This document shows, piece by piece, positions 1 through 8,793 of a stretch of 8,793 nucleotides of DNA (its first letter is position 1; each line of letters begins with the position of its first letter). The stretch spans positions 1-8,793 of the forward strand of contig CAMWZE010000043.1 of assembly GCA_947178685.1 (NCBI GenBank), given 5' to 3'. The DNA comes from an uncultured Porphyromonadaceae bacterium. GTDB taxonomy: Bacteria; Bacteroidota; Bacteroidia; Bacteroidales; Muribaculaceae. The translations under genes were made by a program, and so were the position numbers. The notes under the pieces are model-generated. The model saw only the letters and a list, made by a program, of their open reading frames with translations. It ran no database searches and was not told the DNA's origin.

Positions 1-1
1 G

Positions 2-1870
2 CTCCTTATCACTAAAGATATGAATCGCGTGGCGCAGATGTCGTGCAACCCTGCTGTCGGCGGTATCGCCAAAGGCCAGATTGTGCGCGAGATAGATGCT
101 CTGGGCGGCCAGATGGGCATAATTGCTGATAAAACTGCCATTCAGTTCAGAATGCTCAACCGTTCGAAGGGGCCGGCCGTGTGGTCGCCACGTGTGCAAA
201 GCGACCGCGAGAAGTTTATCAGCGAATGGCGTAATGTGCTGGAAACCACACCACATCTGAACCTGTTTCAGGATATGGTAACCGGTATGGAGTTTGAGGA
301 AGCGGAGGGTAAGCAGAGAATCTGCGGTGTGCAGACTGCTCTTGGCTTCTCATTCTCAGCAAAGAAGGTGGTGCTCACAGCCGGTACGTTCCTTAACGGA
401 CTCATGCATTTCGGCGCCACACAGATTGAGGGTGGACGCATCGCTGAGTCTGCATCAAAGGGTATTACCGAGCAACTTAGAGAGATCGGTTTTACGGCTC
501 TGAGGATGAAGACCGGCACTCCGGCGCGTATCGATGCCCGTTCAATTGATTTCTCTTTGACAGAGCGGCAGGATGGCGACGATAAGGTTGTGGCTGTAGA
601 GGAGGAGATGCTCTCTTCAAAGGAGACGGTCGTGGAATTGGTGGAACGGGATTTCCATAAATTCTCATTTCTGCCGGAAATAGGGCGTTCGCTTAAACCT
701 CGGAGCTGTTTTATTGTCCATACTAATCCTGAGGTTCACGAGATCCTGAATGATAATCTGGCGGATTCTCCGTTATATAATGGTCAGATACAAAGTATAG
801 GTCCTCGTTATTGTCCCAGCATTGAGACTAAGATTGTGACATTTGCCGACAAGGAGAGCCATCAGCTTTTCCTCGAACCGGAGGGGGAGACCACTCAGGA
901 ATTTTATATAAACGGCTTTTCAAGTTCATTGCCCTGGAGAGTGCAGTTGGAGGCACTTAAGAAAGTTCCCGCTCTGCGTAAAGTGCATTTCTATCGCCCC
1001 GGCTATGCCATAGAATATGATTATTTCGATCCTACGCAACTTACTCATGACCTCCAGACAAAACTTGTGGAGGGCTTATATTTTGCCGGACAGGTGAACG
1101 GCACCACCGGCTATGAGGAGGCTGCGGCCCAGGGTCTGATGGCGGGTGTCAATGCCGCTCTTGCAGTGAGAGGGGATGCTCCGTTGGTTCTTGGCCGTGA
1201 CGAGGCTTATATCGGAGTGCTAATTGATGATCTGGTGACAAAGGGTGTCGACGAGCCTTACCGTATGTTTACCTCCCGTGCTGAATATCGTATACTCCTT
1301 CGTCAGGATGATGCCGATATGCGGCTCACGCCGAAGGGCGGCGCTATCGGATTGGCTACTCCCGAGCGGGTGGCCGCTATGGAGGAGAAGCGTCGTCAGA
1401 GAGATGAACTGATAGAATGGTGTGAGAATTTCACAGTCAAGATGGGGGATAAGATCAATGCTTCCCTCACTGAGTTGGGCACAACACCGCTCTCTGCATC
1501 CACGCGCATTGTGGAGCTGCTTAAACGCCCGCAACTCAATTTTGCGAATCTTTCGGATGCGATCTCCCGTTTGAATAAGCGTCTTCAGGAGATACCTGAG
1601 CAGAGACGGGATGAGATTGTGGAGGCTGCGGAGATTCTTATAAAGTATGGCGGCTACATAGCGAGAGAGCGCGATCTTGCTGAAAAGGCAAAGCGCCTTG
1701 AGTATGTAAAGATTCCGGATGGGGTAGACTACAATTCGCTCACATCACTCTCCACAGAGTCGCGCCAGAAATTGTCGGCTATCCGTCCGGCTACGATAGG
1801 ACAGGCTTCACGCATACCGGGAGTGTCGCCGGCTGATATCAATATCCTCTTGATTCTGCTCAACCGTTGA
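2..1870 (+). CDS. mnmG: MnmG (GidA), tRNA wobble-uridine modification enzyme, 5'-truncated
   Basis: MnmG is the FAD-dependent partner of MnmE. Together they place the (carboxymethyl)aminomethyl group on C5 of the wobble uridine (U34) of certain tRNAs in the cytoplasm. The first ATG is at 20, but the frame is open to the window edge, and the residues before it (LLITKD) continue the family sequence. The gene is therefore cut, and about 30 N-terminal residues with the Rossmann GxGxxG FAD motif are missing. Counting from the Met at 20: QMSCNPAVGGIAKG with a conserved Cys at 9; the conserved GPRYCPSIE at 261-269 with the second conserved Cys at 265; FAD-contact motif GLYFAGQVNGTTGYEEAA at 352-369; FTSRAEYRILLRQDDADMRL at 417-436; and the C-terminal helical MnmE/tRNA-binding region ending RIPGVSPADINILLILL. 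One oddity is about 22 extra residues near 188-212 relative to E. coli MnmG as I recall it. Identity is secure. Confidence 0.97.
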   Translation, partial: LLITKDMNRVAQMSCNPAVGGIAKGQIVREIDALGGQMGIIADKTAIQFRMLNRSKGPAVWSPRVQSDREKFISEWRNVLETTPHLNLFQDMVTGMEFEEAEGKQRICGVQTALGFSFSAKKVVLTAGTFLNGLMHFGATQIEGGRIAESASKGITEQLREIGFTALRMKTGTPARIDARSIDFSLTERQDGDDKVVAVEEEMLSSKETVVELVERDFHKFSFLPEIGRSLKPRSCFIVHTNPEVHEILNDNLADSPLYNGQIQSIGPRYCPSIETKIVTFADKESHQLFLEPEGETTQEFYINGFSSSLPWRVQLEALKKVPALRKVHFYRPGYAIEYDYFDPTQLTHDLQTKLVEGLYFAGQVNGTTGYEEAAAQGLMAGVNAALAVRGDAPLVLGRDEAYIGVLIDDLVTKGVDEPYRMFTSRAEYRILLRQDDADMRLTPKGGAIGLATPERVAAMEEKRRQRDELIEWCENFTVKMGDKINASLTELGTTPLSASTRIVELLKRPQLNFANLSDAISRLNKRLQEIPEQRRDEIVEAAEILIKYGGYIARERDLAEKAKRLEYVKIPDGVDYNSLTSLSTESRQKLSAIRPATIGQASRIPGVSPADINILLILLNR

Positions 1871-4942: not shown

Positions 4943-7210
4943 ATGAGAAACCCAAATGATAATGGAGCTTCGGCTCCCCGAATGAAGAAGAAAGATCTTC
5001 AGGAGAAGTTGATGAAATTCCTGGAGAAAGAGAATAAACAGGCTTTTAATTATAAGCAGATCGCCTTTGCGATAGGGGCCACCAACCCTGCCAACCGCAT
5101 GGACGTGATCAACCTCCTTGATGAGCTCGCTGCCGCCGACCTTATTCAGGAGGTGGCGCTTGGAAAATATAAGGCAAATGCCAACCGTGGCACGGAGAAT
5201 ATAGGTCTCTTCGTGCGTCGCAGCAACGGCAAGAACGGCGTGATGATCGACGACGAGCTGATCATGGTGGCCGAACGTAATTCCATGCATGCACTGAACG
5301 GCGATAAGGTGAAGGTGGAGATCTCAGCACGCCGCAAGGGTGTGGAACCTGAGGCGAAAGTAATCGAGATAATCGAACCGAAGGAACAGGTGTTCATCGG
5401 CACGCTCAACGTAGAGAAGGATTACGCGGCTCTCGTGACCGATTCCAAGTTCCTCGCCGCCGATATCATTATCCCGCGCTCGAAGCTCAAGGGTGGAAAG
5501 ACCGGCGACAAGGCTATAGCCCGCATCACTCAATGGCGCGACGAGGAGATGAATCCTCGTGGCGAAGTGGTGGATATCCTTGGTAAGAAAGGGGAGAACA
5601 CCGCCGAGATGCACGCCATACTTGCAGAGTTCGGACTCCCTTATAAATATCCCGAAGCTGTGGAGAAGGCCGCCGCTAAGATTGATGCCGGAATCACTCC
5701 GGAGGAGGTGGCGAAGCGTGAGGATTTCCGTGGCGTCACTACTTTCACCATCGACCCGCGTGATGCAAAAGACTTCGACGATGCGCTCTCGATACGCCAG
5801 CTCGCCAATGGCAACTGGGAGGTGGGCGTGCATATCGCTGACGTAACCCACTATGTGCAGCCTAACACTATTATCGACCGCGAGGCTCAACAGCGTGCTA
5901 CAAGTGTATATCTTGTAGACCGTACTATACCGATGCTCCCGGAACATCTGTCAAACGGAATCTGCTCACTCCGCCCGAATGAGGAGAAGCTTACCTTCTC
6001 AGCCATTTTCGAGCTGGATGCAAAGGCAAACGTGGTGAACTACCGTATCGGGCGCACCGTGATAAAATCTGACCGCCGCTTCACTTATGAGGAGGCACAG
6101 GAGATAATCGAGACCGGGAAGGGTGACTTCGCCAAGGAGGTGCTCACTCTCGATAAGCTGGCCAAGGAGCTTCGCCGCCGTCGCTACGATCAGGGTGCGT
6201 TGGAATTCGACCGTGCGGAGGTGCGCTTTGAGATCGATAAGACCGGTCATCCTATAAGTGTCTACTTCAAGGAATCGAAAGATGCCAACAAACTTATCGA
6301 GGAGTTCATGCTTCTCGCCAACCTCACAGTTGCAGAGAGCATCGGCAAGGTGCCGAAGGGGAAGAAGGCGAAATCGTTCGTCTATCGTGTGCATGACAAT
6401 CCCGATCCCGAGAAGATCAATAACTTTTCAATGATAGCCCTGCGCTTCGGACATAGGGTGAAGACTGAGGGTAGTGCCAAGGAGGTAAACAAGAGTCTCA
6501 ACAGATTGCTGAAGGATGTGAAGGGCAGAGGCGAGGAAAATATGCTTGCGATGCTTGCCATACGAAGCATGGCGAAGGCTGTATACACCACCGACAATGT
6601 GGGCCACTACGGACTTGCACTCGATTATTACACTCACTTCACATCGCCGATACGCCGCTATCCCGATATGATGGTTCACCGTCTTCTCGCCAAGTATGCC
6701 GACGGAGCACGCAGCACCGACAAGATGAAGCTCGAAGATCAGTGTAAGCACTCCTCCGATATGGAGCAGCTTGCTGCCAACGCAGAGCGTGCATCTATAC
6801 GCTACAAGCAGGTGGAGTTCATGCGCGACCGTCTCGGTGAGGTCTACACCGGTGTGATCTCGGGAGTGACGGAATGGGGATTCTATGTGGAGCTCGACGA
6901 GAACAAGTGTGAGGGTCTTGTGCCCGTGCGCGACCTTGCCGACGACTACTATGACTACGATGAGAAGAATTATTGCCTTATCGGAAGAAAGTATCACAAT
7001 AAGTATACCCTCGGCGACATCGTGAAGGTGCAGGTGGCTCGGGCCGATCTTGAGCGCAAGCAGCTCGATTTCGCTCTTATGAGCGACGAGGGAAATCCCA
7101 ACAAACCGATAGAGGAGAGGAAGAGCAAGAATCCTCGCCATAATCCGAAAGACAAAAAGCACAAGAGCCGTAGTCACGGCGGAAATTCCCGCCGCAAAGA
7201 GAAAGAGTAA
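4943..7210 (+). CDS. rnr: Ribonuclease R (3'-5' exoribonuclease)
   Basis: RNase R degrades RNA processively from the 3' end and can pass through duplexes. In E. coli it handles structured mRNA, defective rRNA and trans-translation targets. The 755-residue protein has an N-terminal winged-helix-like region (about 15-75), cold-shock OB domains (about 80-215), and an RNB catalytic domain (about 255-590). It ends with an S1 RNA-binding domain (about 632-712) and a Lys/Arg-rich tail (about 720-755). The metal-binding active site is IDPRDAKDFDDA (270-281) with Asp 271, 277, 279 and 280. Tyr 323 in SVYLVD and the TSPIRRYPD motif (567-575) are conserved RNB landmarks. Length is in the family range, and the basic tail argues for RNase R over RNase II. 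The start at 4943 follows an A-rich leader without a Shine-Dalgarno sequence; Met 14 is a possible alternative. A glycosidase gene begins 11 bp downstream. Confidence 0.96.
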   Translation: MRNPNDNGASAPRMKKKDLQEKLMKFLEKENKQAFNYKQIAFAIGATNPANRMDVINLLDELAAADLIQEVALGKYKANANRGTENIGLFVRRSNGKNGVMIDDELIMVAERNSMHALNGDKVKVEISARRKGVEPEAKVIEIIEPKEQVFIGTLNVEKDYAALVTDSKFLAADIIIPRSKLKGGKTGDKAIARITQWRDEEMNPRGEVVDILGKKGENTAEMHAILAEFGLPYKYPEAVEKAAAKIDAGITPEEVAKREDFRGVTTFTIDPRDAKDFDDALSIRQLANGNWEVGVHIADVTHYVQPNTIIDREAQQRATSVYLVDRTIPMLPEHLSNGICSLRPNEEKLTFSAIFELDAKANVVNYRIGRTVIKSDRRFTYEEAQEIIETGKGDFAKEVLTLDKLAKELRRRRYDQGALEFDRAEVRFEIDKTGHPISVYFKESKDANKLIEEFMLLANLTVAESIGKVPKGKKAKSFVYRVHDNPDPEKINNFSMIALRFGHRVKTEGSAKEVNKSLNRLLKDVKGRGEENMLAMLAIRSMAKAVYTTDNVGHYGLALDYYTHFTSPIRRYPDMMVHRLLAKYADGARSTDKMKLEDQCKHSSDMEQLAANAERASIRYKQVEFMRDRLGEVYTGVISGVTEWGFYVELDENKCEGLVPVRDLADDYYDYDEKNYCLIGRKYHNKYTLGDIVKVQVARADLERKQLDFALMSDEGNPNKPIEERKSKNPRHNPKDKKHKSRSHGGNSRRKEKE

Positions 7211-7221
7211 TTAAAAATAGT

Positions 7222-8739
7222 ATGATGAGAAGGAACACAGTGGCGGCATTATTGGGAGGTGTGGCTCTCTTTACGGGAGGACACTCCCTCTTTGCCGCAG
7301 ATGATGTAATCGTGACGACTGATGCCTACACATGGAAGGGCGACACGCTTTATCAGGATGAGTTCAAGGCTTGGGCCGTAAGCCCGGAGGAGATCCGCTC
7401 CACCTACAAGGGGCGTCCCGGCTATTTCATGCCCATCGATCAGGTGTGGCGCCGGAAGAATGACCTCTCCGCCTATCCTAAGGTGAGCGGTGGAAATCCA
7501 TTGATGGAGGCGGTCTACAATATGGGGCTCGATGAGATGGTGAATGCCGTGGAGCCGGATACAACCCTGCGTACCGGCAAGGAATGGGCCGGAGTGTGGA
7601 CACGCGACGTGAGCTATTCCATAATCCTCTCCATGGCCGCTCTTCAGCCGGAGGCCTCCATGATCTCACTTATGAAGAAGGTGAATCCGGAGGGGCAGAT
7701 AATTCAGGATACAGGTTCCGGCGGCGCCTGGCCGATATCGACCGACCGTATGATATGGACGCTCGCTGCCTGGGAGATCTATAAGGTAACAGGCGAGAAG
7801 AGCTGGCTTGAGAAGGTGTATCCGATAGTGGTGCGGTCGCTTGCCAAGGATAAGGCTACGGTGATGAGCGAGGATGGTCTGGTGAAGGGGGAGACCTCTT
7901 TCATCGACTGGCGTGAGCAGAGCTATCCTCGATGGATGCAGACCGCCGACATATCGCAGAGCGAGGCTATGGGCACCAACGTGCTCTATGCCACCGCGCT
8001 TGATGCCGCCTCGGAGATGGCTTCCGTGCTCGGGAAGAAGAAGGAGGCGGCCGCCTACAAGAAGGAGGCGTTTGATCTCGCTCAGGCTATCGACAAGACA
8101 TTCTGGATGCCCGACAAGGGTTATTACGGAATGTACACATATGGCCGCGACAACAAGATTCTCAACCCACGGGCAGAGACTCTCGGTGAGGCGCTCGCCA
8201 TCATCTATGACGTGGCACCTAAAGATAAGCAGAAGTCTATCTCAGAGAATAACCCGACTACAAAGTTCGGTCCTGCCATATTCTATCCGCAGATAGCCGA
8301 CATCCCCAACTATCATAACAATGCCCTTTGGCCATTCGTGGCATCTTATTGGACGCTCGCACAGGCTAAGACCGGAAACGAGCAGGGGGTGCTGGAGGGT
8401 ATAGGTAGCGTGGTGCGTCCGGCGGCTCTCTTCGCAACCAATAAGGAGAACTTCAATCTCGACAACGGCGACATCTTCACCGAGCTCAACTCCTCAAATA
8501 TGCTCTGGAGCCTTGCCGGAAACATTGCCTTGACAAATCAGATTCTTTTCGGAATACATTTCGAGAAGAATGGCCTGCGCATCGAGCCTTTCGTGCCCGA
8601 GGCTTTGGGAGGCACCCGCACGCTTTCCAACTTCCCTTACCGTGGGGCGCGACTCAACATCACTGTGAGTGGCTTCGGCGACAAGGTGCGTAGCCTTACG
8701 GTAAATGGCAAGTCATATTATCCGGAGAAGGGTAAGGTA
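7222..8739 (+). CDS. Secreted (alpha/alpha)-barrel glycoside hydrolase, 3'-truncated
   Basis: This is probably an exported carbohydrate-degrading enzyme. Residues 1-26 form a Sec signal peptide: basic MMRRN, a hydrophobic core AALLGGVALF, and a likely cut near SLFAA/DD. Residues about 90-440 look like a six-hairpin (alpha/alpha) glycosidase domain of the kind in GH63/MGH1-type and related clans. It is rich in Trp and in helical pairs, with GVWTRDVSYSI (124-134), GGAWPISTDRMIWTLAAWE (167-185), SFIDWRE (226-232), NYHNNALWPFVASYW (363-377) and GDIFTELNSSNMLWSLAG (416-433). Asp 129, Asp 229 and Glu 421 are plausible catalytic acids, but this is inference. A beta-sandwich cap begins after about 440. 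I cannot assign a CAZy family or substrate. The frame appears to end at a TAA at 8746-8748, but that codon is inside adapter sequence, so real coding stops at about 8739 and the true C-terminus is missing. It starts 11 bp after rnr, so co-transcription is likely. Confidence 0.85.
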
Positions 8740-8793
8740 TGTCTCTAATACACATCTCCGAGCCCACGAGACATCTCAGGATCTCGTATGCCG
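8740..8793. other. Illumina Nextera adapter read-through (non-genomic)
   Basis: The contig end reads, in order: 18 of the 19 bases of the Tn5 mosaic end in read-through orientation (8740-8757, matching TGTCTCTTATACACATCT with one T-to-A change at 8747); the Nextera read-2 stretch CCGAGCCCACGAGAC (8758-8772); an 8-nt index ATCTCAGG (8773-8780), which I recall as i7 index N715; and ATCTCGTATGCCG (8781-8793), the start of the P7 flow-cell sequence. The base at 8739 is A where the mosaic end has C, so the exact junction is 8739/8740 within one base. The order and exactness of these parts leave no realistic biological explanation. Confidence 0.98.

Follow-up and report, generated by a model that had tools for sequence, protein, structure and literature searches.

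Nextera XT adapters that persist in assemblies after Illumina read-through have a recognizable layout, in which a mosaic end (ME), the read-2 handle, an i7 index of the catalogue set and the P7 adapter follow one another at the end of a sequence. The ME derives from the ends of Tn5. When two-colour Illumina reads run past the end of a fragment, they turn into poly-A and then poly-G. The canonical Tn5ME-B and ME oligonucleotides are among those printed in PMC7402673, and the N715 sequence is found in the Nextera XT v2 index table printed in PMC7589761. Here, we analyzed the end of a bacterial contig, in which such a layout was observed. The whole stretch of DNA analyzed, 8,793 nucleotides in length, is referred to as the window.

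Identity and order of the adapter parts

The tail of the window reads ...GGTAAGGT and, after the junction, ATGTCTCTAATACACATCT CCGAGCCCACGAGAC ATCTCAGG ATCTCGTATGCCG, with 8793 being the last base of the window. Its parts are as follows:

8739..8757, + strand: Tn5 mosaic end (ME), read through; ATGTCTCTAATACACATCT, 19 nt, 17/19 matching
8758..8772, + strand: remainder of the Nextera read-2 (transposase B) adapter, CCGAGCCCACGAGAC; 15/15 exact
8773..8780, + strand: i7 index ATCTCAGG, N715 of Nextera XT v2 (index table printed in PMC7589761)
8781..8793, + strand: first 13 nt of the P7 flow-cell adapter, ATCTCGTATGCCG, read through and ended by the window end; 13/13

The read-2 handle adjoins the ME without a gap. 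In total, 45 of the 47 fixed adapter positions agree with the canonical sequence, and the 8 other bases form a catalogue index, in agreement with the initial annotation, which had described the last 54-55 bases as ME, read-2 adapter, 8-nt index and P7 in this order. It had also counted two mismatches, one internal and the other at the junction, and both could be located: compared with the canonical ME (CTGTCTCTTATACACATCT), the window has T>A at 8747 and C>A at 8739 (the junction). When both strands of the window were searched with the ME pattern, allowing up to three mismatches, the single match was that at 8739-8757 on the + strand (2 mismatches). No other ME within three mismatches was detected anywhere in the window, including its 5' end, and the pattern was found in none of 200 shuffles of the window. 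Positions 8739-8793 are almost certainly leftover Nextera library adapter, that is, a non-bacterial artefact without biological function.

Junction with the genome and the interrupted gene

Window positions 7201-8793 were compared with 80 related loci (the best 80 of 135 relatives), whose records are named from Muribaculaceae, Porphyromonadaceae, Bacteroides sp. and similar. Alignments stop at exactly 8738 in nine of the 80 loci (L001, L002, L003, L005, L006, L008, L009, L011 and L036), that of L004 stops at 8737, and the remaining 70 stop earlier. None of the 80 loci could be aligned past 8738, and none has the adapter bases at this place. The nine loci that reach 8738 read on in frame as coding sequence (for example, ...AAGGT followed by GATTCCGGCC in L003): after GT they have G, or C in L002, then ATT, ATA or ATC, and then CC. 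At position 8739, therefore, eight of them have G and L002 has C; the window has A, which can be either genomic (as the third position of a valine codon) or an error in the adapter. The genomic part of the window therefore ends at 8738 or 8739. The genome had been expected to diverge at about 8739, and this expectation was borne out, here by relatives and not by reads. The same bases in another genome, which had been named as the finding that would speak against an adapter, were sought among the 80 related loci and are absent, and the closest proteins continue differently.

The gene that is interrupted at this point, and the stop codon that seems to end it, are located as follows:

7222..8738, + strand: glycoside hydrolase gene with a six-hairpin domain, real but 3'-truncated (Pfam and relatives)
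8746..8748, + strand: false stop TAA (TTA in the canonical adapter), due to the mismatch at 8747

Four genes were recognized upstream by Pfam, encoding MnmG (5'-cut), a phosphoribosyltransferase, UvrC and an RNase R-like protein. The first of them, MnmG/GidA (window 1-1870), runs off the 5' end of the window, where there is no ME. The gene beginning at 7222 matches the Pfam families Bac_rhamnosid6H (3.6e-15) and MGH1-like (7.9e-8). Its ORF (7222-8748) is seemingly complete and encodes 508 aa, an apparent end that arises because T>A at 8747 turns TTA into TAA within the adapter; with the canonical adapter substituted, the frame stays open up to the window end. Two homologues, P0001 (775 aa) and P0002 (774 aa), are each 99% identical to the product of the window ORF and continue ...YYPEKGK-VIPAKLLKGDVDI, where the window reads an adapter-derived KVCL-stop. 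Among the homologues listed (120 of 3911 matches), none of the 120 has KVCL at this place. Of the first 30 listed, 29 read on, and the other one, P0022, a 445-aa partial sequence, ends short of the place. P0022 is named from a Muribaculaceae bacterium, and 443 of its 445 residues are identical to those of the window protein. Judged by these comparisons, the last gene of the window is 3'-truncated and belongs to a Muribaculaceae-like bacterium. For data hygiene, the 55 artefactual bases should be masked, as had already been advised, and the last gene should be marked 3'-partial, not as a 'complete' glycoside hydrolase of 508 aa.

Two alternatives assign the ME-like sequence to the genome. A natural Tn5-like transposon end at this position would account for the match at 17 of the 19 ME positions, but what comes next is a synthetic read-2 handle, a catalogue index and P7; moreover, relatives carry the gene onward without an ME, and similar strings end unrelated contigs with sample-specific indices (see below). 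The synthetic parts, together with the absence of an ME from relatives at this place, led us to reject this explanation, whose probability is vanishingly small. It could also be supposed that the ME-like bases TGTCTCTAA are genomic and that, in a PCR or assembly chimera, the adapter was joined to them by short homology, with the true junction near 8748. The position of both mismatches within the first nine ME bases would fit such a join. However, in the nine relatives whose alignments extend this far, nothing at the place resembles TGTCTCTAA, the two 99%-identical proteins read V-I-P-A and not V-C-L, and residual adapters elsewhere have the same kind of errors. On the evidence of the relatives' DNA and of these two proteins, this second alternative was also rejected, as highly improbable. 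We thus return to leftover library adapter as the preferred reading of the tail.

Adapter remnants in the genomes of relatives

When an exact 22-nt adapter pattern was used, only 1 of 34 relatives' genomes matched, which gave the impression that the relatives were clean. This view was overturned by a mismatch-tolerant search of 80 relatives' genomes with the 66-nt adapter as the query. Matches were identified in 29 of the 80 genomes (15/40 plus 14/40) at 95 places, all of which were read. They are concentrated in two series of metagenome-assembled genomes (MAGs), with matches in 20 of 26 genomes of SRR14411xxx and 8 of 10 of SCxxxx (28/36 MAGs together); outside both series, 1 of 44 genomes matched, namely the isolate G007. 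The match in this isolate (L224, G007:C17:90535-90558) comprises the P7 part only (96% of 24 nt) and lies about 300 bases from the contig end. The other 94 of the 95 places are at contig ends, with the loci stopping within about 75 bases past the adapter 34-mer. These places (L210-L304 except L224) are contig ends of 28 published MAGs with error-bearing Nextera remnants. In L208 (1-96), and at the contig end in L211, L212 and L241, the remnant passes P7 into poly-A and then poly-G.

Among the 95 remnants, 94 reach into the ME, and every one of these has at least 2 edits there. Over all 95 places, the ME has 2 edits in 75, 3 in 12, 4 in 3, 5 in 1, 6 in 3 and 9 in 1. An ME with 0 or 1 edits was found at none of the 95 places, nor when the whole loci were searched regardless of place. 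If indels are disallowed, exactly 2 ME differences are counted in 74 cases; L235, whose ungapped score is weak, has 2 ME edits with gaps allowed. L264 is so strongly degraded that hardly any of its ME can be read. The two ME changes of the window recur in L225.

For each place, the nearest catalogue index with up to 2 mismatches was called. The MAG series have nearly one index per sample: N704 was called at all 10 places of SRR14411261, N711 at the 6 of 7 places that could be read in SRR14411294, and N714 at the 5 of 6 that could be read in SRR14411253 (two bins). Exceptions are L295 (SRR14411243), in which the call is off by one base, and L221 (SRR14411285), which has three mismatches to the nearest index, and ties were obtained for L259 and L264 (SC0363) and L250 (SC0364). 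The index of the window, N715, occurs in SRR14411350 (exact in L262, with one mismatch in L242, the third place being too short) and beyond this sample only as a tie in L264. It is possible that the window and SRR14411350 have a library in common; the window may also come from outside the SRR14411xxx and SCxxxx series.

Read trimming, contig end and comparison with other records

In the window, the 34-mer has exactly 2 edits, both within the ME and none outside. When trimming rules were applied to the remnants of the relatives, none of the 95 would be removed by the rule '19-mer, at most 1 edit', against 57 of 95 by '12-mer, at most 1 edit' and 50 of the 84 full-length remnants by '34-mer, at most 3 edits'; for the relatives, these removals rule out the 12-nt and 34-nt rules. 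The 12-nt form corresponds to trimming in use elsewhere, as given in a passage of PMC7089989. In 80 clean rows, each taken with its own number of mismatches, at least 2 mismatches always fall in the ME. Under uniform placement, this has a probability of ~10^-20, a figure that leaves out 15 rows because they were cut by the contig end or had more than 8 mismatches, and to which some libraries contribute several rows, so that the 80 are not entirely independent. An error tolerance of 10% is the cutadapt default. The sharp edge at 2 or more edits in the relatives looks as if it were the residue of trimming against the 19-nt ME at about 10% error, and the adapter of the window probably escaped such trimming because of its two ME mismatches. 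We consider it likely that this account holds for the window itself, with the trimming setting inferred from the relatives' genomes, which may be of another study.

According to this account, the library would have contained a short fragment produced by Nextera (Tn5) tagmentation of an uncultured Muribaculaceae-like genome, and sequencing would have run past the insert of this fragment, first into the read-2 adapter, then through the N715 index and as far as the start of P7. Trimming would have searched the reads for the 19-nt ME with an error tolerance of about 10% (a maximum of 1 edit). A read-through would then have been kept only if its ME had 2 or more errors, and the assembler would have extended the contig into the adapter tip and halted at the read end. 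The initial annotation had attributed the end of the contig to the end of the insert. This is right in part, but it is incomplete, because inserts end at every position; presumably, an untrimmed adapter tip was assembled where too few reads crossed.

A different picture was obtained for viral contigs, in which the adapter pattern was found in at least 120 stretches. Among the matches listed, the ME is exact in 121 of 125, and these remnants look untrimmed, although the control is biased to low-error copies because the pattern demanded an exact handle plus P7. Since viral MEs are mostly exact, some remnants are not survivors of trimming. This lends some weight to the view that the window, too, has a plain untrimmed adapter, whose two mismatches are chance sequencing errors with no bearing on trimming. 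However, the viral set is dominated by exact MEs and the ME of the window is inexact, and among the relatives' remnants that reach into the ME, 0 of 94 have fewer than 2 edits. Chance errors are therefore a rather unlikely explanation, and we retain escape from ME trimming as the preferred one. Searches of the viral contigs for two exact strings, one containing the N715 index and the other the ME variant of the window, gave 0 matches each, so no sister contig was obtained via that route. In three viral stretches, L133 (6363-6400) and L175 and L197 (about 2.6 kb in), the adapter lies thousands of bases from both stretch ends; such internal strings are probable chimeric joins.

Window positions 8700-8793 had matches in 39 phage records and 10 plasmid records, and no match to complete E. 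coli genomes at E 1e-5. The matches listed (20 phage rows and 10 plasmid rows) all start within a few bases of the adapter. Adapter-like strings are present in deposited records such as LR597637.1 and MK327946.1 (GenBank phage) and in NZ_LC520282.1 (plasmid). In such records, some of the strings overlap genes annotated as hypothetical proteins, and one overlaps a putative baseplate hub gene.

Because similar residue occurs in 28 of 36 MAGs of two series, mismatch-tolerant adapter screens are needed. Error-bearing remnants probably constitute a sharp fingerprint, from which the trimming rule and the sample index could be read in finished assemblies. By the same reading, public, species-representative gut MAGs are likely to carry contig-end remnants that are missed by exact-match screens and that can make false stops and gene ends.

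Compared with known systems, the window resembles Illumina Nextera XT read-through remnants in assemblies in the order of its oligonucleotides, in its place at the end of the sequence and in its index, which belongs to the catalogue set. It differs from the Nextera XT remnants in viral contigs, most of which have an exact ME among the matches listed, in that its ME has two errors. With the residual adapters in the SRR14411xxx and SCxxxx MAGs, it shares both the presence of at least 2 ME edits and the position at a contig end.
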